Part shown: positions 19,861 through 60,839 of the stretch, piece after piece
How positions within the stretch are numbered: position 1 is the stretch's first letter
Layout: every line of letters begins with the position of its first letter
Position numbers and translations under genes: made by a program
The notes under the pieces: model-generated
Told to the model about the DNA's origin: nothing
Database searches by the model: none
What the model saw: only the letters and a program-made list of their open reading frames with translations
Origin: Cladocopium goreaui
Taxonomy: Eukaryota; Sar; Dinophyceae; Suessiales; Symbiodiniaceae
Assembly: GCA_947184155.2 (NCBI GenBank)
Contig: CAMXCT020000902.1
Coordinates: 248,001-312,000, forward strand
Direction: 5' to 3'
DNA: 64,000 nucleotides

Positions 19861-20305
19861 GGTTTCAAAATCGATAAAATAGCTGAGCTTGGTTGCTCAT
19901 TGCAACTCTCTGAACCAGAAACAGCAAACCTTTCGAATTCTGTCCAACTCCCATATTTTGTCAAACGCACATGAGCAGTGTCAGAAATCAGAGTTCCTTA
20001 ATAAACTGTTATTAAGGTTGTGTGATTTATTGGTGCTAAAATTGGTTTTGGAATGCACTATTCTTATTAAAGGTTTAATACAGTTTTTTTTTTTTGTCTT
20101 GTTGGTTGGACAACACCCCCAAAAACAAGATTTTTCTTAATAAGGCTCTAAATAGTGAAATTTCAATTTTATTGGGAAAAGCCATGTCTTATCAAGACCT
20201 TATTCAGCCCTTAACCACAAATCGCTAATAAGCATTTATTAAGAATGTGTTACACCACTGATTGGCCCTTATCAACCGTTTCATCCTTATCCATACCTTA
20301 CCATA

Positions 20306-32000: not shown

Positions 32001-34015
32001 AACCTTGTTTTCTATAATAGTCTTCGTGGGTGCCCTCTATCATCAAGGCAGGCACAAAGTATACAGTCATCAAATTTTGAAAGAATATGTACCACAATCT
32101 CCATGTTCGCAGCGGTTACCCATGTCTGTGGGTGCAAACATTGACAGGATTGACCAGGTTAAGGGTGAACTCAGTTTCCCATGTTTCACATCGATAGTTG
32201 ATTGCAGGTATAAGAGTGGGTACCCACATGTAACCCCCGAAAATAGTACAGAACACTGAAACCCCGGTAATTACTCATTATTTTGACACATATTGACGCA
32301 TACCAGACCCAAGACTCTTTGCAGCATCCAAATTCTTCTCCAGCCATGCCTTTTGCTTCTCCCGCAGGGGTTGGGCGTCCTGGTCATGGCGCGAAAGCTG
32401 GCTGGACATGTCCCAAATGGTGGCAAAACCAATTCGTTTCGAACCCAAAACTATCCAATTTGGATGGGGGTACCATGAGGTGGTGATGGGGGCCCTAAGG
32501 AAACACTTGACATGGCACGAAATGATACGAAATGCGTCAGCATTTCAGCTCACCATCGCCATCACTTCCCGCCTTGGGATCGCGCACCAGAAACAGAAAG
32601 TCGCCAAAGGGATCTTTGAAACTCGCAGGGCGCCCCGCACACTGCGGCAGCTCATAGACTTTGCTCAACTTTTCAGGACTCACCCAGACTTGTTTGGAGG
32701 GTCCCAGCTTCAAGAGGAAGATGGGCCTTGGCACGGCAAAGACGTTGGCTTATTTTTTAGCAACAAGTCAACAAGTTTAAAATAAACTGAAGGTAATGTT
32801 TATTCATTTTTCTTGAACCATTCAATAAGTCAATGTTTGGCTCAAGAGCCTTGAGTCAACAGATGTGACTGTATCGCCAACAGCTGGGTAGATAGCCAAA
32901 GAATGGATGGATCAATCTGGGGATGTACACTGATGTGATCCAAGATGTAGACATAGATAGGATTAGATAGGTTCGAATACAACCACCAAGGATGGAATAG
33001 GCTGAGTATGCAAAAACGATGGATTTGTACAGCATAATACGGCATATACCCATAACCTTTGTGGGCGGGACGGAGAATGCCTCCATTTTTTGCCCGGCAA
33101 AGCACTGTTTTGGCTGTTGGGATCCTAAGTTCAAAGGTTCAAACTGAAACAACAATATTCAATAATATTCAAGTATCCTCAAAAACACTGTTCTTTTTCT
33201 GTGTTAAAAACACAAAGAAAACATGTTGGCATCCATTCCCACCGTTTCTAGCCCCGTTTCCTCGCCGTTTCTAGCCCTGTGGTGCCCGCTCCAAGGTATC
33301 CAAGAGGCCCATGCTTTCTCCGTTGTTCGCTAAGCACCTGCAACAACGACTTGCCACGGATCAGGGCCCAAATCACCTGAGTCCAGCCGGCGATGTCGCC
33401 AAGACACACGCCAAGACATAGTGGACGTGGCTGAAATGTGGTGTTGAAACACCTGGTGTTAATGGTGTTTAAAGGTACTTAATGTGGTGATGTGGTGTTA
33501 AATGTTGTGTTTAAGCACCTCCAATGGTGTTTAATGTGGTTGAAACATGTTGAAACACCTGGTGGTTTAATGTTGCTGATTCTTGGCAGGAGAGAATTCC
33601 ATGGCTACGGAGGTATCAAGTCAACAACACGATGATGTACCTTTTTCTTTTCTGATGTGGTCCCTGTGAAAACTCAAAAGATGTGTCCTGGAGATTTGCG
33701 CAAATTGGGCGCGTTTATTGGTCTTCAAACCATTGAACAACCACTGCCTTCGCATCAAACAGTCCACTCAACTGCAATGATCGGGTGAAATTGGTGAAAT
33801 CGTGGGCCCCCCAAAAAATACCCTCTGGTAAACGAACATAACTATGGAAAATCACCATTTTTCATGGGAAAATCCACTATAAATTGTGATTTTCCATAGT
33901 TATGTTAGTTTACCAGAGGGTAATCTGAGATGATCTTCCACATCTGTGGAATCCGTGGCCCCGCACTGATAGGGCGCCCAGAAAGGGCACGGCCGTGGGC
34001 CCGGGCAGCGGAGTC
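22811..34015 (-). CDS. Cytochrome P450, multi-exon
   Basis: Exons read right to left over 11 kb. 33967-34015 encodes TPLPGPTAVPFLGALS, the proline-rich hinge after a membrane anchor. 33309-33376 and 32588-32726 join as RRKHGPIFLLKLGPSKQVWV. 25511-25565 contains ALGPPRKVLADAV (post-K-helix). 24706-24796 contains EDMLIPEGALLFAMH. 23235-23304 has the haem loop FGVGPRSCLGKPVAEA. 22811-23001 is the C-terminus (RILPAVLGAILQRYEL to a stop). P450s are haem-thiolate mono-oxygenases, usually on the ER membrane with a reductase partner. The haem Cys codon is 23260-23262. The N-terminal anchor exon was not found, and the Glu of the K-helix ExxR could not be placed. Substrate unknown. Several GC donors are needed. 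Confidence 0.85.
23235..23304 (-). CDS. P450 haem-binding exon
   Basis: Contains DDFQSYAFGVGPRSCLGKPV, a full FxxGxRxCxG signature. Frame to the last exon (acceptor before CATTGGACACC at 23001) is kept only with a GC donor, GCGA|GCCTTG, giving AEATLDTRILPAVLG. Confidence 0.88.
23604..23720. repeat. Inverted-repeat element family A, variant ends
   Basis: TACCCTCTGGTTATTTATCA to TTAAATAACCAGAGGGTG. It uses TTATTTAA next to the terminal motif, like the copy at 28361. It sits inside a TA-rich microsatellite. Confidence 0.82.
26400..32420 (-). CDS. P450 internal exon islands
   Basis: GC-rich minus-strand islands between the N-terminal and K-helix exons: 32300-32420 (LREKQKAWLEKNLDAAKSL), 31790-31960 (NPRIQEAAKSALEKHASNS), 31420-31510 (VFLQDGSTQVWPVLDSQEL), 31115-31230 (FPEEALRVATYSAVSTESR), 30790-30930 (IAEALLGTAELGEGELERLM), 30120-30200, 29690-29790 (PGAAEIKEIVEVRRASEHP), 27950-28060 (AIARSSREDVVLPLMVAASV, possible I-helix) and 26400-26480 (LEAAAASAAKSNDREQLLKA). 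Order and phase fit a P450 helical domain, but single islands are weakly supported and borders are approximate. Confidence 0.5.
28361..28473. repeat. Inverted-repeat element family A, variant ends
   Basis: TACCCTCTGGTTATTTAACA to GTTAAATAACCAGATGGTA; a sister of the copy at 23604. Confidence 0.82.
31260..31400. repeat. AT-rich microsatellite cluster
   Basis: ATATATC/ATATATAT tracts; similar AT tracts lie at 20630-20720, 31540-31690, 35780-35930, 36985-37065, 38030-38060, 38250-38450, 59630-59750 and 62860-62940. Tyr/Ile-rich ORFs through them are not genes. Confidence 0.9.
32588..34015 (-). CDS. P450 N-terminal catalytic-domain exons (three)
   Basis: 33967-34015 (acceptor preceded by TTTTTCCTCTCTAG; GT donor GTGCGG), 33309-33376 (VIWALIRGKSLLQVLSEQRR then KHG, apparent GC donor GCCTCT) and 32588-32726 (PIFLLKLGPSKQVWVSPEKL, later AGRPASFKDPFGDF, GT donor). 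The joined reading KHGPIFLLKLGPSKQVWVS is the classic YGPvfrlklGp block. Confidence 0.82.
33819..33922. repeat. Inverted-repeat element family A
   Basis: Near-consensus copy, TACCCTCTGGTAAACGAACA to TTAGTTTACCAGAGGGTA, 44 bp into the first intron of the P450 gene. Confidence 0.88.
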
Positions 34016-40100: not shown

Positions 40101-43100
40101 CCAGTTCCCAGCCAGCCCTGGGGTTTGTGGTCCAAGCGTCAGGTGCCCACGGTGGTGACCGTCACAGTACAGAGATAGATCGATTCCGACAGGGACTGGT
40201 TGCTCTGTGCTGGCTCCAAAACGTAAAGGATGCATCCGAAGAAGAGAACCTCAGAACTTTATAGGGCTTTCCAGGAACTTTCAGAAACTTGACGCAGTGT
40301 TGATTTTTGGGCGGAAAACGTGAAAGAAAAATAAATCAAGAAACTTCTGGGTTCCTACACACGTTACTCATTTTTCCTCAAGGTTGAGTGTATGAAACCG
40401 CATCTGCTCACAGGGTGAACCATCCCAGCTGCCTCCCAGCCAGGCCGCAATCAAACAAACTAAGAACAGCAAAAGCTTCAGAGCATCGAAAGTCGTCGAC
40501 AGTACGTGCCTTGGGCACGGGGTTACCCACAGAAAAAAATCAGAATTGATGGACATTTTAGAATATATTTTACTATTCAACTACGCAAGTTGGAGGGGTG
40601 ATTATGTTTTAGTTACTGCCTTAGCCTATATTCAACATGCAAAAACATGTCAAGGAATGAGATAACCCAAAGATGGGGCTGGGACATCAACCTCTGCTTG
40701 TCTTCAAAAGGGATGTTGTGATGAAGATATGAAGCGACGCACATTGCCACCAGTACAAAGTCTGAAAGTGAGATGGGTCGCTCCAAAGGTGGATGGTCAA
40801 TATATTATGGTTTGAAATGAATCAAAAGATGGTAAATATATGAAATAACATTACATCAATATAATATTATGTTAATCACTTACAATGATGAAAAATTGCC
40901 CAAACATCTGGCCTCAACTGGGTCTTAAGCTTGACCCCAGATATGGGAATTGAAATTGGATGGAGAATCTCCAAGAATTGGGCTCCTCATGACATCTCAT
41001 TTCCAGTCATTTCAGCATCCAAAAGTCGATTTGTGGAACGGGCATTCCTCCCAAGAAGATGTCCAAATCGCACGTTGACAAGAAGAATCAGGGTTAGTTG
41101 AATGGAAAATTTACAAGAGATTAATTCAGCTGATGGTTTCCTGTCATTTCAACCAAATCCAGAATCTTGGCTCAATCCGGGTGCCGCTCGTGATCTCAAC
41201 ACTGCAACCAATCGAAGGTCCCTGTGATCTGTTGGAAAATTGGCTTTCTCATATAATTAGTTAGTTTGCTGAAATCAACCCAAAAACCTTCCATCATCAT
41301 CCCAAAAACGGTTCTATGGTTATCCCATCATCAAAAGTCCCCTCCAAGGTGCAGTAGAAGCTGCAGCTTCTGGAACTTTCGGATCAGTTTCAGTTGCCTT
41401 ACCACCGGAACGAAGCAGCACAGCAGCGCGTGCACCGCCAGGTTCTCGTCCACCGTGGGGGTGGCGATACCGTAGGCGATGCGGAAGCCCAGAGGGACGA
41501 TGGCCAAGAGGTCCAGGACGTTGTAGGCGTTCTTCAGGAACGCCTACAACGCGGGGAGCTCAAAAAGCCCAAAAAAACACGTCCCAAACGTCGTGGTTTT
41601 TTGGGGGGCGAGCGTTGAACATGGGATGCGTCGGAATTTCGGAGCTTGTCCCAAATGGAATGGTTTCTGATCAAAAACTCACGTAAACATGGGATGCAAA
41701 CAATGTTGATCTAATTAGCCCGTGGCGGTCCCAGCCACACCAATGTGGGGATGTGTCAAGCCGCTAGCCATTAGGGTACCCTCCGGTGTCATCAAATTGG
41801 CTAGCTGGGAAATCACGTTTTTTGAGATTTATTTCTGGGAAACCATCTATAAATGTAGGATGTTCCATTGTCATGTTTGCTTGGATGTGGGTATATGAAT
41901 ATTCCATGAGTATGTGGGGTACCCCAAGATGGGATGGTTTACTGTGTCTACTAATCGACCAAAACTGATGCTTCTGCCATGAATGTTGACTGATAAACGA
42001 GTCACTGAAGGTTTGGTGGCGTTTGGAGAGTTTCATCTCTAGTACAACATCAAGGAAAAATGACACTATCAAAGGTGTGAAGCATCAGAAAAGCTGGAGT
42101 GCTGAAAGGTTATCTTTGAAGCCTGAATTGTCATGGAAGGCTTCCTTCAAAGTTCCCTTTTTTGAGACGCCCCTGCGTCACCCGGAATCCCAACATTGCA
42201 GCCCGCATGGTGATGTTTTGACTTGCCCAGCATGGTTGGCTATAAAGGGTGACGTTCTTGGAGAAATACCCTCTGGTAATGACTAACATAACTATGGAAA
42301 ATCACCATGTTTAATGGGAAAATCCACTATTTCTATGGCCATTTTCAATAGCTATGTTAGTCATTACCAGAGGGTATCCTTTAAATAATGAGCGGATCTG
42401 GAAAATCTCTCCATTTCTGGAGGAAATTGCCATGAAAATTGAGCGAATGTTTTCCGCTGCCATCTGAGAAATTGAGGGTATGGCAAGTGATTCTTCCATT
42501 GCCCAACAACCTGCCGGGAGATCTGTCTATCCTGGTACCCCCTGGAGTGAAAAATCCCACGAAATATGAAGAGATCCCCAAGTTTTTTTGTTCCAAGCAG
42601 TCCTGGCTAAATGTACCCAATCCCTGCACATGATTGGCAAGTGACTTGAATGTGACTTAAACGCTTATCACGGAGCATGATTAGGATATATTATATCTGA
42701 TATATCATGATATATCTAACATTGTTCAAAAGTGGATATATCATGATATATCTAGTTCAAGTAGAAAAAATCATCAGTTTGTCATCACATGCCCTTTCTT
42801 AAAAAAATGCCTAAAAGGCTCGGTGCTATGTCGCGTCTCCCTGTTTGATCCACGGAGTCCACCCTGTTCAGCATCCCAGGGACCAGTCTTTGGGCGCTTG
42901 AGATCCAATGGATGATGAATTCCAACAGCATGAGCCCCTGGAAGATGGGGAACCCTCTGGTAAACATACAAATAGCTATTGAAAATGGCCATAGAAATAG
43001 TTGATTTTCCCATAAAAAATGGTGATTTTCAATAGCTATGTTAGTTTACCAGAGGGAAATGCTGTTTTGGTCAAGAAGGGAATCAGCTTGGTGGAAAAAA

Positions 43101-44690: not shown

Positions 44691-45113
44691 CCGAAGCATT
44701 GCTGGGTCTCTTCATTTGCAAGCGACCTCAGCGCCAAAAGTGACAATGAAATACCTGATAAATATATATTTGTTGATTAAAAAAATTGGTTCATGGCTTG
44801 TGTGTCAAATTGCCATATCATAATCCCAAAAAACTGCAGTTCATGTTGATAACTCCTGTGGGTTATCAAAAAACAATCATTTTTTTTGCCAATACACCAG
44901 TTGTAGGTTTTAAGACCCCCAACTATAAGCAACAGGTCTCTTCATGCAAGCAACCTGTGGATTTGGTGGAAATCTGGTACCTGTCCTAACTTTTCTAGGG
45001 GTTTCTGTACATGTTCGCGTCATTCAATTCTGGGGTGTCAATGTAACAGCCAAAATCATGGATTTGCATTGGAAAACTACCATATGTTCCCATAATATAT
45101 ACATATATGCATA

Positions 45114-45125
45114 TTATAATTATAT
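45114..45125. other. Candidate target-site duplication, 3' side of LINE
   Basis: TTATAATTATAT, identical to 55772-55783. Moderate support only, because the surrounding DNA is AT-rich. Confidence 0.55.
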
Positions 45126-45275
45126 TTTATTTATTCCACTCTGCTCGAGTCCTGTTCTGGACGCCTGCTTGCAGGCACGTCTCAAAAGCTGCTGTAGCGA
45201 GACATGCGTGCCCAAGGTCTTCACTTCATGTCTGTTGACATGGCTACTAGCCTAGGGACCAAAATTGAAACAAAT

Positions 45276-47111
45276 CTAAAAGTCGCCCATGTTCTTCCAG
45301 TAATCGCTCGTCATTTCTATGCCTTTTGCTCCCACCATGTACGGGTCAAAACCTGCGGCCAGAGCATCCAATGCTTGCTGTAAGAGTTCTGGATCTTCTT
45401 CAAATCCCTCTTCAGTCAAACCCTGGGCATAACGTAAATGAGCTTCGGCGATCACTTTGCACATCAAAGGGGGGTAGGCTTTCGCTTTGGCCGTACGCCA
45501 CCCTTTTTTGTTGCTCTCCCGTCCACCTAACCATTCCGTTGGCTTCCAACCCGGTTGGTAGTGCTTGAAGAGCTCCATGGCGAAATTCTCAAGCCTTCCA
45601 GTGAGCAATGATGTGGGCTTTGTAAAGGGCTGTCCTAACGGACCTTGAATAAAATCAATTCTTTTGACATCTGCTGCCAACAAGAGTTGTTGGATCATTG
45701 CTGAATCCCAAATGGTCCAGCGTCCTTCACGACCCTCAACTCCTTTGGGGTGCTCCAATGAAAAGGAGGCACCAAAACAATATGCCAAAACCATCAGGGA
45801 CAACGCTTTCATCATGAGCAAAGTTCCTACAAAGCACTGTGTAACTTCTTGTAGGGTAAGGTCATCCTTGCCCCATGGAGACTGCACGTCACGTAATGGT
45901 CTCGGTGCTGGGCCATCGTTCACCTCCATCCATCGTGCCAGTGTGTAAGTCTCGCATGGGGGTGCAGCATGCACCCCCGTGACTTTGCGCGCCATAATGA
46001 GGCGGCGCCACAAACCATCCTCAAGGATATTGCCAAACTTTTGATCAATGGCAAGATCCACACTGATCGGTTGGACATTGCCTTGCCACTCCATCCAGCT
46101 GGCAATGTCCGAATATCGGCGATGACCAGAAAATAGGATCAACACATATTTCTGGCCTGTCGACATCGGCCGTGGAATCCAATCAAAGGCAGGTAGCCAG
46201 TGCTTCAGCTTTCCAAGCAACTCCACTTCCAAAGCTGCTGCCGCCTTATTGATGCTGCAAACACTCATGTCTCCAACTTTACGAGATGTCTTACTCCTAC
46301 CTCCCTGCCCGGGCGGGAGCATGCCAAACGCAGACCACTGCCTCAATTCTTCACTTGATGGCTTGCCAGTCTCACCTGCATCAACATCCCGTTTCTGTAA
46401 AGTTGAAATCATTTCATGCTGTTCACACGGCCTCCACAAAGAATCAACCTTTGCATCCAACAGCCCTGTCTGGTGCATTGCCAATCCCTGTTTTCTGTCC
46501 AGTTCATCCAAACGATTGGCCTCTGCAACTTCCATAGGATAAAACCTCCTGCACTGTCCAATCCAACAATCAGTGGTTCCCATATGGAGATGACGCAAAA
46601 GTCTGGGCCTTGTGTGGAAAAACCTCTTGCAAATGCGACAACAAGCATCCGTGGCAAAACGCCTCATAGCCATCCTGTAGCCATGCTTGCGCTGCTGATG
46701 GACTGCCAAAGCTGCTTGGGAAGCAAAAGTGACATGGCAAATTTCACACGCACTGACCTCACTGTCTCTCTGGTTCAAATCCTCTTCATCCACTCTTTGC
46801 CATCCCATCTCACGCAACATCTGGTCTTGTTCCTCCGCATGCCCTTTCACAGTCAGAAAAGCTTTGATCTTGAGCAAATGAGATTTCTGTGCCTTCCGCA
46901 GGCCACGCTTCAAAGTGACTGCAAATGGCTGAAAATCTTTCCATGTTGCCACGTCCTCAAGGTGACTAAGCTCTTCAGGCACCAACATGTCTCCGATCTG
47001 TCTCCTCATCCAGTTAACTGCTTTCACCGCACCATGCAGCCACGATTGACCTTGCATGATCTGATGGTTGTGGAGAACAGCTCCTATCATATATTCATCC
47101 GCAACATGCAT
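45276..47111 (-). CDS. LINE ORF3: C2H2 zinc fingers and cytosine-methyltransferase-like domain
   Basis: 611 aa from the ATG at 47111; a second ATG (47088-47090) overlaps the ORF2 stop as ATGA and is a good re-initiation site. A C2H2 finger (ACEICHVTFASQAALAVHQQ then RKH) lies near residues 121-143, and a second Cys/His cluster (CCRICKRFFHTRPRLLRHLH) near 157-176. From about residue 321 comes a Rossmann-like enzyme domain: YVLILFSGHRRYSDIASW (SAM-loop-like), ISVDLA, then VHAAPPCETYTLARW with a PPC catalytic-Cys motif at about 384-386, SFSLEHPKG, and FIQGPLGQPFTKPTSLLTGR. The order (FSG, acidic strand end, PPC, LEHP for ENV, KPT) is that of C5-cytosine methyltransferases, but diverged. It may modify or bind DNA of the element or target; catalysis is unproven. 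Confidence 0.78.
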   Translation of the reverse strand: MHVADEYMIGAVLHNHQIMQGQSWLHGAVKAVNWMRRQIGDMLVPEELSHLEDVATWKDFQPFAVTLKRGLRKAQKSHLLKIKAFLTVKGHAEEQDQMLREMGWQRVDEEDLNQRDSEVSACEICHVTFASQAALAVHQQRKHGYRMAMRRFATDACCRICKRFFHTRPRLLRHLHMGTTDCWIGQCRRFYPMEVAEANRLDELDRKQGLAMHQTGLLDAKVDSLWRPCEQHEMISTLQKRDVDAGETGKPSSEELRQWSAFGMLPPGQGGRSKTSRKVGDMSVCSINKAAAALEVELLGKLKHWLPAFDWIPRPMSTGQKYVLILFSGHRRYSDIASWMEWQGNVQPISVDLAIDQKFGNILEDGLWRRLIMARKVTGVHAAPPCETYTLARWMEVNDGPAPRPLRDVQSPWGKDDLTLQEVTQCFVGTLLMMKALSLMVLAYCFGASFSLEHPKGVEGREGRWTIWDSAMIQQLLLAADVKRIDFIQGPLGQPFTKPTSLLTGRLENFAMELFKHYQPGWKPTEWLGGRESNKKGWRTAKAKAYPPLMCKVIAEAHLRYAQGLTEEGFEEDPELLQQALDALAAGFDPYMVGAKGIEMTSDYWKNMGDF

Positions 47112-50100
47112 GATGTGGAACAAAGACGTTGGACATACATCAATTCCATAGGCAAAGGTGAATCCATGTCTCTCGCCAGCTCATAGAGCTGGAGATGCCT
47201 CACTTGCCCTTGTTGGTCTCTGGAATGGATCTGCTGATATGTTCGGAAAACACCAGCTTGCCATGCATCATACTCTCCCTGCGTGAGATCCGTCCAGGTT
47301 CCAGCATGCAGTGTGAGAACTGGAATACCAATACTCTTGATCAAAAGCCGCTTCTTTTCCAGATCCATGCTGGGATTCTTCAGCAGCTTGTTCAAGGGAT
47401 GCAACTTGGCCATGGTACTGGCAGTCCGCACTTTGATCTCTTGCAAACAACTTCCAGTTCTTGTGATATGTCCACCAAGATGTTTGTAATGAGCGACAAT
47501 GGGGATCCTGAGACAGCCTGTGTGTTCTGACATAACGCACAAACCTTCACTGCTTGTACGCTCGAAAGCTTGTCTTGCTTTTGTAGCCCCTTCACCATGG
47601 AAAGCAAAGATCGCAGCCGTCTTTCCAACTCCACAAGTCAAAACCATGCCATGCTCCAGCATCGTGTCCTGGATGATAGACATCATGTGGGCCGCTTTGT
47701 CTACCACTTGGTCAGCAGAAGCACATACTGATACGGCCAAATCATCAACCCACGTCACACATCGTGTGACCCAGATGCCTGACACGTTGTCTTGATAGTG
47801 AAGTGGCATACCAGCTCGACAAGCTCTTTCATGTATTCGCCCCAGAATGCGCGACATCACAAGGCTGAATAGCACATCTGCCCCTGGGTCTCCCGGGCGG
47901 GAGCCCGTGGCAGGAGCCTGGATGCTCCTGCCGTCCGGGATAGTGAACCATGTATGTTGGAGGAGAGCCTCCGTGTTGTCAGCTGTCAATGTTGACTGGG
48001 TCGCTTGTCCAAGAATATTCTCATACTTGACATTAGCTTGGAACTGGTCCCATGCTGAGAGGGGTAAACCAATGCGATCAAAAACCTTCCTGATCTGCAC
48101 ATCGTTTCCACATCCAGTCAACATCTCTTTGACCACGGAGTAAAAAGCAGAGCGTATGTCAATGAAGAGGAGTGCATGGGATTCTTTCTGTCGTCGAGCT
48201 TGTGCTTGCCACATTTGAACCTGAAGGTGCAAGCTCTCTATTGACAGCCCAGAACGCCCTCCCCACTGCATTGGGCAAGCAACCCGCGTCAGGCCCTGCA
48301 CCATAATGTGCCTCCATGCCTTTGATATCACTCTGGCTACAACCGGTTCGAGTAAAATAGCCCTGTAGCCTTTCATGTCATGAGCACTGCCCTTACCTTT
48401 AAATAAAGGAAGGAGCCAGCCTCCTGTGAGCTCCGGCACACCTTGGCATCGCAGGCCCATTTTTAAGACCAGAGGATAGATCCTCTTTGCTGCTGTAGCA
48501 CAATCGCCTTTGAACAGTTCGGCTCCCAGTCCATCAAGGCCTGCTGCTTTGACCAGGTTCAACTGTCTCAGAGCCTTCTCTACATCCATCAACGTTGGCA
48601 CTTCCAAAAGCTGCTCAGCAGTCCGAGGTACACAGGTGGGCTTGGATTTGGTCAAAAGATCAGCGAAGACCACAGTCTCGGCGTTTTCGATGTCAGCAAA
48701 CTGCTGTTGCCACGCTTCTGCAATGTCGACCCTTGAAAACTTCCATTGACCATCCAAACTTCGATAACCAGGAAGAGGCTTGGTAAGTTTCCCAGCATGC
48801 TTTGCAATCATCTTTTTCGGCTGCAAGATGCTAAACAAATCTCCATTGCTTGCATGGTTTGTTTGCTGAATTTTTTGGTCCAATTGTTCCTTGATCCACC
48901 TTCTCCAATCCAACTTTTTGCATGACCTGAAACGTGCATCAATGTTGATCCTGGCTTCCAACGTCACTGCTTCTTGCTGACGCAACAACGCAAGGTCCCA
49001 GTCCACCAATTTGTTTTGCTCCACATGTTCGTGCTTGCCTTTCCACGCAAGAAAACATTGCTTCAGCACCTGCATGTTGATCTCTCTCTGGATCGTTCGG
49101 TGTTGCTGACGTAGATCTTTGCGGTCACACAGTAGATTCCATGTGTTCTCACTGAAGTACAACTGCCTTGGCTTCCTCTTCCTTTTGGGGAAATATTTCG
49201 CGGCTCCTTCCTGCAGATGTTGCCTGATGTTTGCCCAATGAGCATTAACATCCTGAGACCATGGCTGTTCTGGTAACATGCTCATCAACTGGACACTTCC
49301 CATCTTGCACCATTCTCTTGCAGCAACACGGTCGTAAAAACTGCTTCGAAGAAACCTGACATCCCCCTTAGGCGACCACTGCATTCCGACTTCTAACATC
49401 AAAGGTCTATGCTCCCCATCTCCATTGAGAACATCGATCTCTTTGTCAACATAAGATCGAATGATACCAGCTTGAGAGTCTTTGGAGATCAAAATGAAAT
49501 CGATACGACTGCTGTATCCCAACGGGGACATGAAGGTGGCAGAAGGACCATCATGAAATTGCGCATATGTGGAAGGGATCATGAGATCCCATTTGTCAGC
49601 AAATTGCCTCAACCTGCTACCTGCTTCATCTTCAACATCCCAAGCATGGTCATCGCAACCTGCACTGGTGATACTTCCAACTCTGGCATTGAAATCACCC
49701 AGACAGATTACCGGCACATTGCTGTCACGTCGCATCATGACATCATTCAATTCGTCCCACCATTTTGACACTTCATCAATTCCTCGTCCTTGTTGTGGGG
49801 CATACAGCACAATCACATCAAAAACCACTGCACCAAAACTGCCTCTCACTGCCAAAATTCGAGTGTCGGAGTGCCATGTACAAAGATCCTTGTCCGCAAC
49901 AATCTGCACCCCAAACATGCGTCCAATCTCTTCGGCATTGAGCCAGGGTTCAACTCCTGCTTGTCCCTGCACACCAGCCGAAATCAACCGCATGAAAGGC
50001 CCCATACTCACGCATGAAGAGACACGTGCCCTGGATTCTTGCACGCCAATGATGTGGATACCATTGTTTGCAAATTGGTGTAAAAGCTCGTTTACTTTCC

Positions 50101-53100
50101 AGCTGACACTGCTGCCATCTCCACTGCCATATTCCAAGGTCCTCACATTGACTGTAGCGAAAGTCAACTTGGCCAAATGCTGGCTTGGAATGTTTTCATC
50201 AATGGGAGGCCTTAGGGTAGAGTCAACACACCCCTGATCTGCATCCGGCTTGGAATTCTGCAACATTGTGCGTAAATCAGGGAGTTCTTCACTAGGAGAA
50301 ATCTCCACCCAAGCCCAAGCTGCCAGCTCGTGCTGCAATAAATCCCCTGAACGAAACTCAAATGCCACAGGAGGCTTCCATCCTCGCCACACTGCCTTTG
50401 CTATGCTGTCTGACATCTCGTTCCAAGGCTGCCCTTGATGTGCTCGGACATGTATGCCCTGAAAAGAGCCTCCAAATCGCTGGGTTCTTTGCTCAAGGAT
50501 GGTCATCATGATTCTGGAATGAGCTTGGCGGTGTGATGTGCCATCTTTTTGCACTGGGATGTTAGAAATCCCCATAGCACCAAAACCAACTGCCAAAGCA
50601 TCAAAGTGGCACTGAATAAAACACGCTTGCTGCGTACATAAACCCAATGCAACTTCTGCCATCGCTATGATCGCTGTGGCTTCCGCATCAATGGCAGAAG
50701 AATTGCATGGACCCAGATCCTCCTGCACAAAACCAGCTGCAAAGCCCACACGATGAAATTGCTTTCGCCCTTCAAAAGTCGATTGCTGCAAAATAGTGAT
50801 TGCCCATGTGGCCACATCATTTTTGCTAGAGCCATCTGTGTACACATGAAAGACAGGTTGCACACCAGTACAGTCATCCGTAAGTGCACAAGCCTCCCTA
50901 GCAAAGGGATGGAGATCAGGAATCGCTGTAAAGTCGGAGTTGATGCCTTCATACCCACGACTCATCACAAACCGCAAATGTTGTTGAATCTCACTGATGC
51001 TGTCCATTCCATGGTTAAACTGAGGGTCCTCAACACCTTGATGATCGCATGCAACATTTTCTGGAGACCCTCTCTGTGGAGGTTCCGTTCTCTCTTCTTC
51101 AGGAGGATACCAGTTTGCCACTCGTAGGGTCTCACAAATTTCTCCCAGTGGCTCCAATACCTTCTTTCTTGGCCTGCTCTTGCTACTTCGTAACTGCACG
51201 AACGAAGTATGTTCCAGCTCAGGCTCTTGTTGGGCCTCCACTCCTTCATGCAAAAGAATGGAAAGCATGTGATGGGTTTGCCAAACCTGAAGACGCACGT
51301 GCACAAAGTCACCAGCTTGCCACATCGCTTGCAACCCACTGATTCTGCGTCCATTGACCAACACATGAGGCTGGACACCTTGCAAAACAGCATAGTCGAA
51401 CCAGAAGGGGTGGATGGCCAATGCTGCCACAATATCCAAAGAAACAGGACCTTCAAGCACCGAGATGGCCCAAAATTCATTGGCTCCTTCAGACCGATAT
51501 GGCATGGATTGTGCTGAAACAATTTGTTGCTGCACCAAAATAGGAAAACCTTCCCTACCACCATAATCCACAATAAAGTGAAATCGAATGTGTTCAGCAT
51601 CACGCAGATCATCAGTGGCCATGGTGCAGAAAACAACCCTAGCATCACTTGACTCAAAAGGCCAAAGCTGCTGCATTTGCGAAATCCAATCCAAATGGAG
51701 CAAATCATCACCCTCCAGAATCAATTGCCGCCATCCCAAGGGCCGGTTTGCTGGCGAAATGCCATGGACATGACAGATGATCTGGTGGATGTCTCCCTCC
51801 ATGTGCTGCAATTCTTCCGCTTGCAAATAGAAGTCTTCAACTCTGTCAATGATGGTGCCTGCTTGTGTCACCAATTCTGGTGTGTCTTCCACTCGTACAG
51901 TGCACAGCCATCCGTCTCTGACGTCATAGCGATGATCCGGTTCCATGACATTGTATCCCAGACGTATGAAGCAATCCCTCATCTTGAAAGGCTTGCAATG
52001 CTTGTGCATGTCCAATTGGACCAGAGCATCCCTGATGGAAATATCAGTGAAGATCTTGGCCCCATAAGGCGCTGGTCTGAGAGGCAAATGACGAGGACCT
52101 CGCTGAATGACAAGGACATTTCTCACGTCCTCATTCATATCTTCCGGACTCTCAATGACAACCAGTACAACCAGAGTATTTGGCCCAGCAACTTCACACG
52201 GCTGTGGCGTGACATGATAAATTGTGATGCTTCCGTAGCGTAAATGGTCCTCCCATAAGGTTCGGATTTTTCCTTCCAATTCGTGAAGCCTCCATGGGTT
52301 GAAGGCCGTGTCCCTTCGACCCAAGTCGACAAGACCCAGACCGTAAGTCACAACAACCCACCTTCGTTCACTTTCAACCAGACCTTCAAGGGCTTGGTCT
52401 ATGAAGGCTTGTGATTGTTCTTGATGGCCATTTGCAAATGCAACATCATCATTGCTCTCTTCATCCTCCTGATCGAGGTCATCATCTTCAATGGCCTCCC
52501 ACGGATATGGATCCGGTCGTTCAAATTGGTAGGTGATGGGTCTATTGGACACTAACCCAACCTCATCACTGTCAACCTCCACCATGTTGCTATGCATGCT
52601 AGGCCAGGTGAGATCCACGTTAGCCTCACCCCCGCCTTCGAGACCTTGCAAGATTTTGTCAAGGTGATGCGTCTGCCAAGACCAAAGGAGATCCGAGTTA
52701 TCCTCCTTCCCGTCTATTGGCCCTGCAAGTGATCTGTCCACCTGACTCCTCTCATTGGCAACATGATTTTGCCCCAATTTTTGATGTCGCTCCCACGTCC
52801 ATGTCTGTCCTTCCTCATGGTGCATGGATATCAAAGAAGCTGAATCATCTTCTTCTTCATCAGAAGGAAGATCTGTGGAAGCCATCGATGAAGTGGGTGA
52901 TGCTTCGTCATCCTCATCTGAAGCTTCCAAGGGGCAAAGATTGCCCACAACATATTGAGCCTGTGGAATTCTGCACAAGCTGTCATCCGCAATCTGCATC
53001 ATTGCTCCCTGATGGTCGTATTGAATACAACAAAGAAAATTTTGCCTGCCACAAGCCTCTGGGTATTGTGCTTCTCGAAAAACAGCACGAACAGTGCTGT

Positions 53101-54376
53101 CTTGCCGAAACAGGACCGCTCTAACAGACATGAGGGGTGGAAGGCCAACACCCTTCATCAATAGGGTGGACCAATGCAAATCATCACCCTGGACAATGAT
53201 GATGTGCGCCCTGGTGCTAGGCAGGCCACTCTCAGGTTGGCCCCCCACCACATACAAACGCAAATCTGATCCATCCATCAACTCCTTCCATGTCTCCCTG
53301 CACGCACGTTCAAAATCCGAGACACTCATCTGCCGATGAAATCTGATTCGACGAGGTCGCACACAAACATGAAAGCGCTCAGGTGAGAGAAACCATGTTG
53401 CAACAAAGACCGGCCTAGTGTCATGCTGTGAACATTGCTGAGTAATCACATTCCACCAGCCATCTGCAACAAATCCTTGCTCCGTATATGGATTCTGTAT
53501 GAAAATTGCAAGCTCCTCAGGATGAGACTCAACCGATTCTCCATTCCAAGAAGGGATGAGATTCAGGGCTGCCAAACGCGCAAACCCAATCTGGAAATCC
53601 TTCCAAACTGCAATTTGTCCATGTAAATGCCAAAAATGTCTCCACATGTCATGTGCATCAACGTCATTCATAACCGCAATACAATGCTGCTCTTGAAAAA
53701 CCAGGTGCAATTCGACAGTCGTAGAAAAGGTGACCTTCTTTCCTTTGCCCCTTTTTTGACTGTCTGCAACATCACCATGCAATACAGGACGTCGTCTACA
53801 CCATGAGGGAAGACTGCAACCTTGGCACGACAAATTGCCATCCCCTGAAGAGCAGGCAATTGTGCACCAGACCTGAGGTGCGAAGAGATCCACGTTAGCC
53901 TCTTCGCCACCTCGCAAAACGGTCTCATTTCCATCCTTCACTTCTGCTGGCTTGATCAGATCCAAGTTACCCTGATCACTGCCAAATTCACTGTCACATC
54001 GCACTTCACACGCAAGGGAGTCAAAGGATCCATCTCTGTAACACAGGGGCTCATACTTTGCCTCAACCTTCTCATTGTAACACTGCTGCGCAACGCCGAA
54101 CAGATTTCTGTTGTGATGGACAACCTCCATGCCAACACACTCATAAACTGTCGATTCATCCCTCAGCAAACCGTGAGAACTCACCATATTGTTTTTTGCT
54201 CCTTCACATTGACTCATAGTGTCGTCTGACACATTCATGTCTTTGTTCCAGGAGAAACTTTGATTGAAATGTGAATGCCAAAACTCCTTAATCCGTCTTC
54301 GAAAGAAGCTTTCTTTTGAAAGGAGAGGTAGTGGAGCTCCTAGATGACTGCTGACTTCCCTGCATCCAGATGTCAT
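47087..54376 (-). CDS. LINE ORF2: polyprotein with RNase H, APE endonuclease and reverse transcriptase
   Basis: 2,429 aa from the ATG at 54376; the frame stays open up to an ATG at 55690 (2,867 aa), overlapping ORF1. Residues 1-1170 match nothing I know and hold acidic tracts. RNase H lies at about 1175-1330, with D1181 (YTDGSS), E1232 (DAEATA), D1259 and H1313/D1323 (RAHQGQPWNEMSDS). APE-type endonuclease is at about 1400-1665: N1410 (NVRTL), E1447 (QESR), D1561 (GDFNAR), D1626 (SRIDFIL), GEHRPL. RT is at about 1910-2300: AAGLDGLGAELFK, D2073 (FIDIRSAFYS), TGSRPGDPGAD, D2211/D2212 (TWVDDLAV), HYKHLGGH. All catalytic residues are present, so it could be active. RNase H ahead of the endonuclease is unlike the known LINE order. 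It ends in ATGA, overlapping ORF3. Confidence 0.9.
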   Translation of the reverse strand: MTSGCREVSSHLGAPLPLLSKESFFRRRIKEFWHSHFNQSFSWNKDMNVSDDTMSQCEGAKNNMVSSHGLLRDESTVYECVGMEVVHHNRNLFGVAQQCYNEKVEAKYEPLCYRDGSFDSLACEVRCDSEFGSDQGNLDLIKPAEVKDGNETVLRGGEEANVDLFAPQVWCTIACSSGDGNLSCQGCSLPSWCRRRPVLHGDVADSQKRGKGKKVTFSTTVELHLVFQEQHCIAVMNDVDAHDMWRHFWHLHGQIAVWKDFQIGFARLAALNLIPSWNGESVESHPEELAIFIQNPYTEQGFVADGWWNVITQQCSQHDTRPVFVATWFLSPERFHVCVRPRRIRFHRQMSVSDFERACRETWKELMDGSDLRLYVVGGQPESGLPSTRAHIIIVQGDDLHWSTLLMKGVGLPPLMSVRAVLFRQDSTVRAVFREAQYPEACGRQNFLCCIQYDHQGAMMQIADDSLCRIPQAQYVVGNLCPLEASDEDDEASPTSSMASTDLPSDEEEDDSASLISMHHEEGQTWTWERHQKLGQNHVANERSQVDRSLAGPIDGKEDNSDLLWSWQTHHLDKILQGLEGGGEANVDLTWPSMHSNMVEVDSDEVGLVSNRPITYQFERPDPYPWEAIEDDDLDQEDEESNDDVAFANGHQEQSQAFIDQALEGLVESERRWVVVTYGLGLVDLGRRDTAFNPWRLHELEGKIRTLWEDHLRYGSITIYHVTPQPCEVAGPNTLVVLVVIESPEDMNEDVRNVLVIQRGPRHLPLRPAPYGAKIFTDISIRDALVQLDMHKHCKPFKMRDCFIRLGYNVMEPDHRYDVRDGWLCTVRVEDTPELVTQAGTIIDRVEDFYLQAEELQHMEGDIHQIICHVHGISPANRPLGWRQLILEGDDLLHLDWISQMQQLWPFESSDARVVFCTMATDDLRDAEHIRFHFIVDYGGREGFPILVQQQIVSAQSMPYRSEGANEFWAISVLEGPVSLDIVAALAIHPFWFDYAVLQGVQPHVLVNGRRISGLQAMWQAGDFVHVRLQVWQTHHMLSILLHEGVEAQQEPELEHTSFVQLRSSKSRPRKKVLEPLGEICETLRVANWYPPEEERTEPPQRGSPENVACDHQGVEDPQFNHGMDSISEIQQHLRFVMSRGYEGINSDFTAIPDLHPFAREACALTDDCTGVQPVFHVYTDGSSKNDVATWAITILQQSTFEGRKQFHRVGFAAGFVQEDLGPCNSSAIDAEATAIIAMAEVALGLCTQQACFIQCHFDALAVGFGAMGISNIPVQKDGTSHRQAHSRIMMTILEQRTQRFGGSFQGIHVRAHQGQPWNEMSDSIAKAVWRGWKPPVAFEFRSGDLLQHELAAWAWVEISPSEELPDLRTMLQNSKPDADQGCVDSTLRPPIDENIPSQHLAKLTFATVNVRTLEYGSGDGSSVSWKVNELLHQFANNGIHIIGVQESRARVSSCVSMGPFMRLISAGVQGQAGVEPWLNAEEIGRMFGVQIVADKDLCTWHSDTRILAVRGSFGAVVFDVIVLYAPQQGRGIDEVSKWWDELNDVMMRRDSNVPVICLGDFNARVGSITSAGCDDHAWDVEDEAGSRLRQFADKWDLMIPSTYAQFHDGPSATFMSPLGYSSRIDFILISKDSQAGIIRSYVDKEIDVLNGDGEHRPLMLEVGMQWSPKGDVRFLRSSFYDRVAAREWCKMGSVQLMSMLPEQPWSQDVNAHWANIRQHLQEGAAKYFPKRKRKPRQLYFSENTWNLLCDRKDLRQQHRTIQREINMQVLKQCFLAWKGKHEHVEQNKLVDWDLALLRQQEAVTLEARINIDARFRSCKKLDWRRWIKEQLDQKIQQTNHASNGDLFSILQPKKMIAKHAGKLTKPLPGYRSLDGQWKFSRVDIAEAWQQQFADIENAETVVFADLLTKSKPTCVPRTAEQLLEVPTLMDVEKALRQLNLVKAAGLDGLGAELFKGDCATAAKRIYPLVLKMGLRCQGVPELTGGWLLPLFKGKGSAHDMKGYRAILLEPVVARVISKAWRHIMVQGLTRVACPMQWGGRSGLSIESLHLQVQMWQAQARRQKESHALLFIDIRSAFYSVVKEMLTGCGNDVQIRKVFDRIGLPLSAWDQFQANVKYENILGQATQSTLTADNTEALLQHTWFTIPDGRSIQAPATGSRPGDPGADVLFSLVMSRILGRIHERACRAGMPLHYQDNVSGIWVTRCVTWVDDLAVSVCASADQVVDKAAHMMSIIQDTMLEHGMVLTCGVGKTAAIFAFHGEGATKARQAFERTSSEGLCVMSEHTGCLRIPIVAHYKHLGGHITRTGSCLQEIKVRTASTMAKLHPLNKLLKNPSMDLEKKRLLIKSIGIPVLTLHAGTWTDLTQGEYDAWQAGVFRTYQQIHSRDQQGQVRHLQLYELARDMDSPLPMELMYVQRLCSTSCMLRMNI
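47400..48640 (-). other. Reverse transcriptase domain within ORF2
   Basis: Motif A FIDIRSAFYSV (48134-48166), motif B TGSRPGDPGADVLFSLVM, motif C TWVDDLAVSV (catalytic DD codons 47741-47746), and KTAAIFAF then HYKHLGGHI. The usual YADD is WVDD here. Confidence 0.9.
49375..50175 (-). other. APE-type endonuclease domain within ORF2
   Basis: TFATVNVRTLEYG, GIHIIGVQESRA, VICLGDFNARVG, YSSRIDFILIS and NGDGEHRPLMLEV follow the exonuclease-endonuclease-phosphatase pattern that nicks target DNA for LINE priming. Confidence 0.88.
50385..50855 (-). other. RNase H domain within ORF2
   Basis: Acid residues in order: YTDGSSKN, IDAEATAII, CHFDALAVG, then HVRAHQGQPWNEMSDSIAKA, a full DEDD-plus-His set. 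The codon for the first Asp is 50834-50836. It lies upstream of the endonuclease in the reading frame. Confidence 0.85.
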
Positions 54377-54384
54377 CGCAACAC

Positions 54385-55425
54385 TCACTTGTCCTCCTTC
54401 TCCTTCTCTCTGACTTTGGCATCTTTGAGTTCCTTCAAATCTTGCGCCTTTGGCTTGAGATGATGGTTCGCAACTTTGCTTGGCGAACTTGACCCACAAA
54501 AGGGACGCAAAGCTTTCGGAGTCGCTTTGCTCATTGCCCCCTGGGCTACATCCTCCGCCTCTACAAGCTCCTCGTCGTCCATGGTGTCTGTAAGATCGAT
54601 GGAACTTGCATGTCCCTCTGCGTTCAGGGTATTCTGCAGGTCCTCGAACTGCACCTCCAAATCTGGCATTTCCTCGATGACTGGTTCTGTCCATTGAGGT
54701 CCTAACAGGGACCTGGACGCCAGCGTCATCTCCTGCTTTACATTTGCAAGCTCCAAGATCTTGGCATTGTAGTGCTCCATCAGATCTGCTCGACAGTTTT
54801 GGAACATCTCTCCATGCTGTCGGACCTTGGCAATCGTATTGCTGACAAACGATGTCCACTCTTGATCCAAGTCCTTGATCTTCTGTGCAGCTGTTGCCAC
54901 TTGCCCTTTGAGCTTGCTCAATTTTTTCAACTGCCCATGCGTCAATGTGCGATTGGATTGTGCTTTCGCTTCCCTCATGGAAAGCTCCTCCAATCTTGAT
55001 GCCATCGACTCCGTGAGCTCCATGTCCATAGCCTGTAACCCTCTGAGATGTTGCAGCATCTTGTCCTCCTCCGCTGTAAGCGCCATCGGTGCTTCGACAG
55101 AAGGCGCTGGTGGCAGAATTGGCTGCGGTGGCATCCCAAGGGGCTTGTCCATAGAAATTCCTGTTTCCACTTTCCGCTGAACTCTGCTGGCCGGCGTAGT
55201 GGGAATCCATGGCAGCTTGTCCGAAAACACTGCCCATGTGTCTGACTCTTGGTTGACCTGTTCTGCTGCCTTGTACTCCGAAGCAGTTGCTTTTTGCTTC
55301 TTGCTGCTCTTGGATCTGGAGCGACGCGGTGCTGTCCAAACCGCACTCCAGTGAGCCTGACATGATCGGCAATAGGTCATCTTTGGGGTATTGTTGACCT
55401 TGCATGCTTGACAATGCCACGTCAT
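54385..55425 (-). CDS. LINE ORF1: RanBP2-type zinc finger and helical protein
   Basis: 346 aa from the ATG at 55425. The frame is open further up to about 55,708 but has no earlier ATG. It begins MTWHCQACKVNNTPKMTYCR, so Cys 5, 8, 19 and 22 form a C-x2-C-x10-C-x2-C RanBP2-type finger, a fold that binds single-stranded RNA or protein. A basic Ser/Lys/Arg patch (SRSKSSKKQK) follows, then a Pro-rich link, a long helical region rich in E/Q/L/K (about residues 135-250), an acidic stretch (DTMDDEELVEAED) and a Lys/Glu-rich tail. This is the size and composition expected of a LINE RNA-binding ORF1 protein, but the finger type differs from the CCHC knuckle usual there. The stop (54385-54387) lies 8 bases before the ORF2 ATG at 54376. 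Confidence 0.75.
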   Translation of the reverse strand: MTWHCQACKVNNTPKMTYCRSCQAHWSAVWTAPRRSRSKSSKKQKATASEYKAAEQVNQESDTWAVFSDKLPWIPTTPASRVQRKVETGISMDKPLGMPPQPILPPAPSVEAPMALTAEEDKMLQHLRGLQAMDMELTESMASRLEELSMREAKAQSNRTLTHGQLKKLSKLKGQVATAAQKIKDLDQEWTSFVSNTIAKVRQHGEMFQNCRADLMEHYNAKILELANVKQEMTLASRSLLGPQWTEPVIEEMPDLEVQFEDLQNTLNAEGHASSIDLTDTMDDEELVEAEDVAQGAMSKATPKALRPFCGSSSPSKVANHHLKPKAQDLKELKDAKVREKEKEDK

Positions 55426-55689
55426 TGTACTCAACTGCTGTACCTCGAGGGGAAGATCTGCAGGATTGAAAGAATGGTGGCTGTGCAAAACGCTCCAAGC
55501 CACTCTTGCTCTCCTTTTCGTTCCTTTCCCCCAAAAACCAACTCTCACCTGCTTCAGGCAGGATCGCACCCGCTGCCTCTTCTTCCTGAGGCGACGGTGC
55601 CAGTAGGGTTCGAGCTGATTCGCCAGTGTGAGTAGAGACCCAGGCAACAAAGTCAAGCCACAAGTAAATTGCGAGCAATCGTCCAACCA

Positions 55690-55771
55690 TGCGCTTGGAG
55701 CGTCGCCCTATGGTTAGTGGCTAAGGGCAATAGCGGTAGTCGCAAAGCTATCACCCCTGGGCCGAAACCTT
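55690..55771 (-). promoter_or_regulatory. LINE 5' leader
   Basis: About 80 bases between the candidate target duplication and the first ATG (55690). That ATG opens the ORF2 frame, not the ORF1 frame. No promoter motif recognised. Confidence 0.4.
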
Positions 55772-55783
55772 TTATAATTATAT
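55772..55783. other. Candidate target-site duplication, 5' side of LINE
   Basis: TTATAATTATAT, identical to 45114-45125. Confidence 0.55.
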
Positions 55784-56109
55784 ATATATATTATCTATTT
55801 ATATTTGAAATAGTCCAACTGAGCCAAAAAAAAAAACTGCCGTCCCATCATTGCACTGGTGGGCATATGGGTATCCCTATGAGCTCACCCGGCTACCGAT
55901 CCCTGGGATCGGTCGGGAAATCTAGAGGATTTCCGGAAAAATGGCTGATAATGATGGGTTCATATTGGGAAGTTCCCAATACATAGCTGGATAAAAAAAT
56001 ACCTAAATACCAATGGATGGTCCCAGAGGGATATTGCGCCACCCAGCAAAATACCTTCGACGATTTGTGAAGATGTTTCCCAACCCAATTGGTGATTTTT
56101 TAGGATGTT

Positions 56110-56608
56110 TATAGGAAGAATGCCCATGGCATCGGCACAAAAAATCGTGTCCCTCTTCCACCAATCTGAAGATCACCTCGCGCCAGATCTGCAGGGTGAC
56201 TGTTTGGCAAGGCCACTTTGGGTGCGTTCTCGTCCTGAGGATTGGAGATTCATGGAGACTTCAGACTCTTCCAAAGGTATGGGTCAAAAACCAAACGTAT
56301 CATCAGATGGTGAGCACCAAAATAGCTGGGGTCCACCCAAAATGGTTATAGGTATTGGATCTCTGGCAATATGTTCAACCTCTTCCACTTAATTTTGGCG
56401 AAGATCAAACATTGGAAAACCACAAACTTTTCCAACTTTTCCCAATTCAAAAGGTACAGAGATGCAAGCCCCTACTGCCCTTCCCCCTTAACACTGCGGA
56501 AATATCACCCAGCCAAGTTTCGCTGGAACTTGCAAAACTGGCAGAGGAACTCGAGCTGCTCGTACTTGTCCTGTCAACCATGGGAAAAACAACACGTTCC
56601 ACCCTCTG
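56110..56608 (+). CDS. Candidate plus-strand exons, unidentified
   Basis: The island ending at 56276 (contains HLAPDLQGDCLARPLWVRSR, then AAAG|GTATGG) and 56455-56608 (AG acceptor; contains ISPSQVSLELAKLAEELELL; CTG|GTGAAT donor) join in frame. However, the minus strand also reads well here (ETWLGDISAVLRGKGSRG; LQIWREVIFRLVEEGHDF), so strand is uncertain and no family is recognised. Confidence 0.35.
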
Positions 56609-58300: not shown

Positions 58301-58348
58301 AGCTGAGTAGCTGGTATTTGTGATGATTCGTGATGATTCGTGATGATT

Positions 58349-58452
58349 TACCCTCTGGTAAACTAACATAGCTGTGGAAAATCACATTTTTGAGTGGGTA
58401 AATCAACTAGAAATAGCAATTTTCAATAGCTATGTTAATTTACCAGAGGATA
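58349..58452. repeat. Inverted-repeat element family A
   Basis: TACCCTCTGGTAAACTAACA to TTAATTTACCAGAGGATA, directly after a triple TGATGATTCG. Confidence 0.85.
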
Positions 58453-58568
58453 TCATGATCTTTGGATATTCAAAGGTTCGTCCCTGCAGAATATCGCATG
58501 GCAGAATGGCTGGTGATAAAGAAAGCTATATGCTGAGGGTTACAGACAATCACAGCAGGTAAGTGGCA

Positions 58569-59864: not shown

Positions 59865-59972
59865 TACCCTCTGGTAATTTAACAGTTTGCTATTGAAAAT
59901 GTTGATTTATAGTTGATTTTCCCATGAAAAATGGTGGATCTTTCTATAGCTATGTTAAATTACCAGAGGGTA
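59865..59972. repeat. Inverted-repeat element family A
   Basis: TACCCTCTGGTAATTTAACA to TTAAATTACCAGAGGGTA. Confidence 0.86.
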
Positions 59973-60839
59973 TATACCAAATAGATCGTTTTTGTTATGA
60001 AAATCTATGGATGAAGCTATGATGGGAAAACATGGGGAAAGCCGTGGGCCGGCCGCCGACAGGGAAATCCATTATAAACTTTGGCATTTATAGCTAGAAA
60101 AATCATCTATAGCTGGGGGAATGTTCCAGCAAGCCATGTTTGATTTGGATTCTTTATCTGATATGTTTACTGATATTTGGAAGAGTTGTCATACGTTGAT
60201 GGCATTTGATGATGCGGAGAAAGATTAGTCATGATGGTCCACATTGTGATTATTGATGGTTGAACAATCTTGAGCGCAAAAAATGTTCAAGAACCACAGG
60301 CCAGGGACCTATGGAGGCTATTTACTGTAGTCCATTGAATACATCAATGGATCCATCCCCTAGTATCAGGGCTGCGAGTTGGCAGGGGTTCACAGATTGC
60401 CAGATGGCATCCCAGGGAAAAAAACTGGTACACCCAAGCTAAGCACTGGGGCGCAAGAGCTGTGCCCTCCAGTTTTGTCAGGTTCCAGGAATGGGGGGGG
60501 GTCCTTTTCCATACACTAAAACCAAGGTGTTTGAGAATGTTTGGATAGATTCGGACACCCCCCTGACATATTGAAGATTAACCGACCCAGATCCATTCCC
60601 ATGATTAATTACCCACAGCTTTCCTGCATCGATCGAAGTCTTCCCTGTCAAGATTGTGAATCCTTGTAACCATTCAAATTCTTCAAAGGTCCATCAAAAT
60701 CAAAAACTACAAGAATCATCAGAAAAATCTCAAAACTCCAAAAGTCAAGGTACATTTTGTTTCAGAAATCCCAATTTCTAACCTCAAGCACAACCCAAGA
60801 TATTCCCATGTTACAATTCTCCACCTAAAAACGGCTTCA

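Follow-up and report, generated by a model that had tools for sequence, protein, structure and literature searches.

Few retrotransposons carry a cytosine methyltransferase of their own. De Mendoza et al. (2018) describe two such families from Symbiodinium, SymbioLINE-Dnmt and SymbioDIRS-Dnmt3, attribute de novo CG methylation to retrotransposon DNA methyltransferases (DNMTs) and count these enzymes by the Pfam family PF00145 (PMC5890265). The DNMT of SymbioLINE-Dnmt, a long interspersed nuclear element (LINE), lies mostly in open reading frame 1 (ORF1), upstream of the ORF for the reverse transcriptase (RT) (PMC5890265). Here, we analyzed a 64,000-nucleotide stretch of Cladocopium goreaui DNA (contig CAMXCT020000902.1, positions 248,001 to 312,000; hereafter the window), which contains a LINE with a methyltransferase-like domain at the opposite end of the coding region. 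The best explanation, to which we give a probability of about 60%, is an APE-type LINE whose polyprotein ends in zinc fingers and a working cytosine C5-modifying enzyme that would act during reverse transcription. Retrotransposon-borne DNMTs are already known; the domain, its placement and its pocket differ here.

SymbioLINE-Dnmt, from Symbiodinium, resembles the element in the window in being a LINE that combines an APE-type endonuclease and an RT with a cytosine methyltransferase. It has target duplications, for which the present element offers a candidate; a further likeness is that its DNMT is under purifying selection similar to that on the RT (PMC5890265). In the present element, however, the domain is C-terminal to the RT, in the same polyprotein in relatives, and stands behind two zinc fingers. 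It has no Pfam match, it shows the motifs GHRR, EHP and AKxYP, and ORF1 carries a RanBP2-type finger. No DNMT was found in ORF1, where the scan gave only this finger and weak matches at chance level. It is highly improbable that the element is an instance of the SymbioLINE-Dnmt family, with which it was compared by description: the host group (by the names of the relatives), the LINE class and the cargo are alike, but the DNMT described there is mostly in ORF1 and recognized by PF00145. SymbioDIRS-Dnmt3 has the methyltransferase and the RT in one Pol frame, and the best VIA matches obtained here are also DNMT3; it is, in contrast, a DIRS element with a tyrosine recombinase and terminal repeats, whose enzyme was assigned to Dnmt3 by phylogeny, whereas the present domain is unplaceable by sequence (PMC5890265). 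A LINE with such a C-terminal domain was not found described in the open-licence PMC literature, a search that left Repbase and subscription papers outside; PMC11453091 yielded two passages, both unrelated.

Predicted fold and conserved residues of the C-terminal domain

The original prediction assigned a cytosine-methyltransferase-like domain to the last frame of the element, and structural comparison agrees with it. The AlphaFold2 model of the domain reached a predicted local distance difference test (pLDDT) score of 92.6 and a predicted TM-score (pTM) of 0.92. Among the matches listed, 50 of 50 from Foldseek and 50 of 50 from VIA were C5-methyltransferases, so the structural mismatch that had been named as refuting did not occur. 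The identity of these structures to the domain was 8-16%. The VIA matches listed included DNMT3, DNMT1, DNMT5, DIM2 and M.HhaI, with DNMT3 the best and tied within 1 Z with others. A chance arrangement of motifs was considered as well and was ruled out by the 66 relatives of the protein together with the predicted fold and the conserved blocks.

The blocks FSGHRR, VDLA, APPCETYT, LEHP and GQPFTKPT, already noticed in the original prediction, are present in C5-methyltransferase order and are conserved in relatives. The domain shares with the catalytic domains of M.HhaI, DNMT1, DNMT2 and DNMT3A/3B the predicted fold, a PPC-type Cys, a Glu that ends the fifth strand and the order of motifs; it differs from them in motif I, in residues 2-3 of motif VI and in motif X, and it has no large target-recognition domain. 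Conservation was counted in 160 domains (159 distinct, window included) that the family profile detected with E values of at most 1e-5. They were aligned to the profile, itself built from 57 of them; some are near or broken copies, and rows without a letter at a position were left uncounted. In motif I, FxGxGG is not found, and Arg324 and Arg325 are kept in 150/152 and 152/152 domains, respectively. Asp345, around which the VDLA block lies, is present in all 152. The Glu of motif VI is followed by His447 (143/144) and Pro448 (144/144), and GNSV is absent from motif X. By strand order, the Lys of KPT lies at the expected place of the motif VIII QxRxR, in a putative register. KPT and AKAYP are separated by 42 residues, too few to house a classical target-recognition domain. 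The catalytic pair, Cys379 and Glu446, is as firmly kept as the odd residues; judged from the alignment, this favors an enzyme whose pocket has changed over a dead sensor.

Linkage of the domain to the reverse transcriptase

To follow the domain from the RT side, we used 109 long RT relatives chosen by length only (0.55 to 1.75 times ORF2). The domain was found in 77 of them. It was present in all 77 whose frame continues for at least 400 amino acids (aa) past the RT, and in 77 of the 87 that continue for at least 200 aa. The linkage to this LINE, which had been singled out earlier as a point to check, thus holds among the relatives, the domain being absent from ten with shorter tails (213-387 aa). 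Two of these ten lie inside the main clade and eight are far (P0171, P0172, P0176, P0177, P0178, P0183, P0184 and P0188), six of the eight having the finger region. A split between lineages with fingers but without the methyltransferase was considered and set aside, as loss, truncation and a prior state are indistinguishable there and several of these proteins sit on long meeting branches.

A quick RT tree was built from 104 rows. Of these, 78, counting the window, have the domain, 10 lack it despite a tail of at least 200 aa, and 16 are too short to tell. Six of the 109 relatives had been dropped, their RT match being too short or too long. The group that contains the window comprises 80 rows, with a Shimodaira-Hasegawa approximate likelihood ratio test (SH-aLRT) value of 100; 65 rows have the domain (window included), two do not and 13 are too short. 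The domain also occurs in far RT lineages at ~25% RT identity, where long branches meet and gains and losses are uncountable. Distances in the RT and in the methyltransferase domain were compared for 64 of the 77 proteins, those whose matches were of sufficient length. The Spearman correlation was 0.78, none of 999 permutations was as high, and the median ratio was 0.97. Because the two sets of distances agree and are about equal, the domain is seen, on this sequence comparison, to have travelled with the RT and to be held equally tightly. The relatives that bear names belong to Symbiodinium (S. microadriaticum, CCMP2592, CCMP2456) or are gene models with the labels Skav and symbB, which we take to be S. 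kawagutii and S. minutum.

Separate reading frame or end of a polyprotein

The domain had been presented as part of a third ORF that starts at the ORF2 stop. Its coordinates, 45276..47123, were correct. The interval is open when read from the minus strand and contains 14 stops when read as plus. The ATGA overlap and the 604-aa frame also stand; it is doubtful that they are the native layout, since 77 of the 109 long RT relatives are fused. A search with the ORF3 protein (7995 candidates scored) gave 66 relatives at E 0.01 or better, 24-71% identical to ORF3 in the alignment, and 35 of them had LINE ORF2 sequence within the same predicted protein. The frame from the RT to the fingers was continuous in all 30 of these 35 whose junction was inspected, the others being P0034, P0046, P0051, P0054 and P0058. 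As this set consists of proteins already in one frame, it demonstrates that fusion is common without showing split copies to be rare. On the RT side, where relatives were unselected for fusion, the same 77 read through into the methyltransferase domain, and so does the nearest relative, P0085 (85% identical in the RT). The linkage and fusion counts come from predicted proteins, which reveal split copies poorly.

Because the long RT relatives with the domain, the nearest included, have one frame, ORF3 most likely represents the C-terminal portion of a LINE polyprotein that a frame change splits in the window copy. As P0085 and other relatives are fused, it is the window copy that would depart from them at the junction, with the ATGA overlap as a probable by-product. 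Very unlikely, in our estimate, is a true separate cistron that the subfamily of the window, at least, would translate through stop-start (ATGA) or a frameshift. The overlap itself would suit it, and so would the 31 of 66 ORF3 relatives in which ORF2 sequence is absent, some of which, e.g., P0010 and P0017, begin close to the junction; the latter could be split copies, partial sequences or gene-model choices. The read-through in most long RT relatives, the closest among them, stands against it.

The fingers had been described as C2H2. Two zinc fingers do lie ahead of the domain, but only the first is C2H2 (ligands C115, C118, H131 and H136); the second is C2HC (C151, C154, H167 and C175). Each of the eight ligands is retained in 98-100% of the rows in which its position is filled (n 48-50). 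Among the Pfam C2H2 models, the most frequent one matched 37 of 67 members (E up to 1), and no finger model attained the Pfam curated cut-off in the window copy. The family profile compared with solved C2H2 fingers gave a best E of 1.5e-8. The finger region was present in 88 of the 109 long RT relatives.

Proposed function and alternative explanations

The polyprotein consists, in order, of a tentative RNase H-like segment, an endonuclease, the RT, two zinc fingers and the C5-methyltransferase-fold domain. It would nick the target and copy its own RNA at that point, while the domain that follows the RT would methylate cytosines in the new DNA or at the site. The reaction is expected to be cytosine C5 modification, probably methylation with S-adenosylmethionine (SAM): Cys379 would be the nucleophile at C6 of cytosine, Glu446, together with Lys491, would hold the base, and Asp345 would bind the ribose of the cofactor. 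The zinc fingers and the attached RT may bring the domain to nucleic acid in target-primed reverse transcription. The lack of space for a classical target-recognition domain means that aim would have to come from the fingers or from tethering. Either the new copy or the insertion site would end up cytosine-modified.

Several results weigh against a working enzyme of this kind. Motif I lacks both later glycines, and Foldseek gave low TM-scores (0.27-0.37 by query length). Pfam gave no family for the domain of the window copy at E up to 10, and PF00145 was not in the best 25 of 55 families for the 67 members; this list is seemingly sorted by members and then by E-value, so that a place lower down would mean one member with E above 0.046. 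In the precomputed Pfam column, PF00145 was found in none of the 66 ORF3 relatives or the 109 RT relatives. An hhalign comparison with Dcm, 10 phage-record enzymes and four IMG/VR Dcm relatives gave a local match of 6.8% probability over 42 columns, although this weak match did place PPC on PCQ; the global mode aligned one column at 0.03%. The CpG observed/expected ratio has a mean of 0.53 in the element (10 counting windows) and 0.60 outside it (s.d. 0.15, 51 counting windows), a slight difference, and CpG depletion was rejected as a footprint of self-methylation because it is too slight to use.

The main rival is an RNA cytosine C5-methyltransferase, acting like Dnmt2 on the LINE transcript or another RNA and aiding RNA stability or assembly of the ribonucleoprotein. 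We allow it a modest chance. Dnmt2 structures are among the best Foldseek matches listed (4h0n at rank 2 and 9hgm at rank 5), a model of the double-stranded RNA-binding (jaz) finger has matches (E up to 1) in 16 of 67 members, and a LINE protein has to bind its own RNA. There is, however, no Dnmt2 among the 50 VIA matches listed, though the ranks there are nearly tied. More doubtful is a domain without group transfer that would serve the RT as a DNA-binding or base-sensing clamp. The replacement of GG by RR in motif I, in nearly all domains, and of ENV by EHP would fit such a role, but the catalytic Cys (148/151) and Glu (143/145), which binding alone does not need, are kept. The GHRR and EHP changes, from which a derived or DNA-sensing role had been suggested, are near-invariant. 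A dead domain with a sensing-only role is unlikely.

A cofactor other than SAM was also considered, by analogy with the phage DNA cytosine carboxymethyltransferase CmoX (8yf3), which has the C5-methyltransferase fold and a basic residue at the place of HhaI Asn304. In CmoX, this residue is Arg350, which contacts the carboxymethyl group of carboxy-SAM made by the phage CmoA, and engineered M.MpeI N374K also accepts carboxy-SAM (PMC12783734). The residue here is instead a Lys, in a register sure to about one residue. Lys537 falls on HhaI Asn304 by end offset in 16 of 17 M.HhaI rows, if gapless, and one HhaI row (2zcj) and the DNMT3 rows displace the match by one residue. Since DNMT3A has an Arg at this place and yet uses SAM, Lys537 alone decides nothing on the cofactor. 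We give very little credence to the idea that Arg324-Arg325 and Lys537 reshape the pocket for a non-SAM cofactor, e.g., carboxy-SAM, with which the LINE would write a mark such as 5-carboxymethylcytosine on new copies. To our knowledge, such a cytosine mark would be the first in a eukaryote. If true, it would be a self/non-self tag set by the protein that also cuts and copies.

Searches for an outside source of the domain were made as well. A profile search that scored 7996 candidates and allowed E up to 10 returned 34 proteins and showed no sequence link to ordinary C5 enzymes in the 33 inspected. These 33 belong to the domain's own family and match it over 44-100% of the first query; the 34th and weakest, P0084, covers 7%. 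A viral or prokaryotic source was also tried and rejected: exact-pattern matches occurred in 39 IMG/VR and 76 prokaryote-genome stretches, none confirmed by tblastn, in scans that required exact patterns and that far relatives would escape. PHROGs gave scattered weak matches, the commonest being to phrog_6283, of unknown function, which 11 of 67 members match with E values down to 0.0002; a DNA methyltransferase family matched one member (E 0.0051).

Layout of the element and other features of the window

The coordinates are collected in Table 1. The Exo_endo_phos endonuclease and the RT share one frame, as in an APE-type LINE, and PF03372 is also in the precomputed column of many RT relatives. 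The ORF2 frame is open across 47087-55690 (2867 codons), its initial ~430 codons overlapping ORF1 in another frame. The ORF1 frame is open across 54385-55707 (-), and 54385-55425 is the likelier ORF1 over the overlapping upstream part of the ORF2 frame. ORF1 is possibly a gag-like protein; RanBP2-type zinc fingers are known for single-stranded RNA binding. The RNase H of LINEs is usually downstream of the RT; the weak RNase H-like segment here precedes both the endonuclease and the RT. PF00075 is in the precomputed column of 14 of the 109 long RT relatives (presence only). The sequence TTATAATTATAT is one of two words of at least nine bases common to the flanks 44900-45240 and 55680-56600. This 12-base, A+T-rich duplication fits a target site duplication at the expected ends, which is suggestive only.

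Two observations concern the window outside the element. Ten copies of a ~107-bp repeat are spread over both strands. The repeat aligns with its reverse complement (75% across 104 bases) and looks like a small palindromic transposable element. The region 16001-20000 has a low GC content (0.33), a GC skew of -0.40 and an AT skew of +0.41 to +0.46, its plus strand being strongly A/C-rich.

Table 1. Positions of the LINE, its domains and motifs, and a repeat in the window.
Feature	Position	Strand	Basis or remark
LINE element, ~10.6 kb, probably full length	45126..55771	-	limits depend on candidate duplication
Candidate 12-bp target site duplication, 3' copy TTATAATTATAT	45114..45125	.	identical to 55772-55783
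Candidate target site duplication, 5' copy TTATAATTATAT	55772..55783	.	identical to 45114-45125
ORF1, 346 aa from first ATG; RanBP2-type zinc finger and likely coiled coil (by eye)	54385..55425	-	PF00641 E 0.0033, under curated cut-off
ORF2, from first ATG after ORF1 stop, at 54376	47087..54376	-	open frame
RNase H-like segment of ORF2, tentative, upstream of endonuclease	50387..50851	-	PF00075 E 0.015, under curated cut-off
APE-type endonuclease domain of ORF2 (limits by eye)	49388..50167	-	PF03372 E 3.1e-5, 24.3 bits vs. cut-off 24.5
RT domain of ORF2 (limits by eye)	47591..48610	-	PF00078 E 5e-7, above gathering score
ORF2/ORF3 junction, ATGA overlap	47087..47124	-	frame change vs. relatives with continuous frame
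ORF3, 604 aa; C-terminal polyprotein part in fused relatives	45276..47090	-	ATG overlapping ORF2 stop
Two zinc fingers of ORF3	46566..46748	-	C2H2 46683-46748, C2HC 46566-46640
C5-methyltransferase-fold domain, ORF3 residues 300-560	45411..46193	-	AlphaFold2, Foldseek and VIA
Motif I, LFSGHRR for FxGxGG	46116..46136	-	FSGHRR residues 320-325
Motif IV, PPCET with Cys379 (APPCETYT block)	45948..45962	-	Cys kept in 148/151 domains
Motif VI, EHP for ENV, Glu446 (LEHP block)	45747..45755	-	Glu kept in 143/145
Motif VIII region, KPT, Lys491 (GQPFTKPT block)	45612..45620	-	Lys kept in 137/140
Motif X, AKAYP for GNSV, Lys537	45471..45485	-	Lys kept in 129/131
~107 bp repeat copies	58347-58453; about 5323-5431, 5649-5758, 33818-33923, 42267-42378, 42954-43059, 59865-59975, 2432-2552, 23603-23719, 1525-1633		

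Significance

Methyltransferase counts based on PF00145 in dinoflagellate genomes would have overlooked this LINE-borne domain family. If the domain is active, a cytosine-modifying enzyme would be present at the site of reverse transcription, and self-methylation by a LINE would be testable in one polypeptide.

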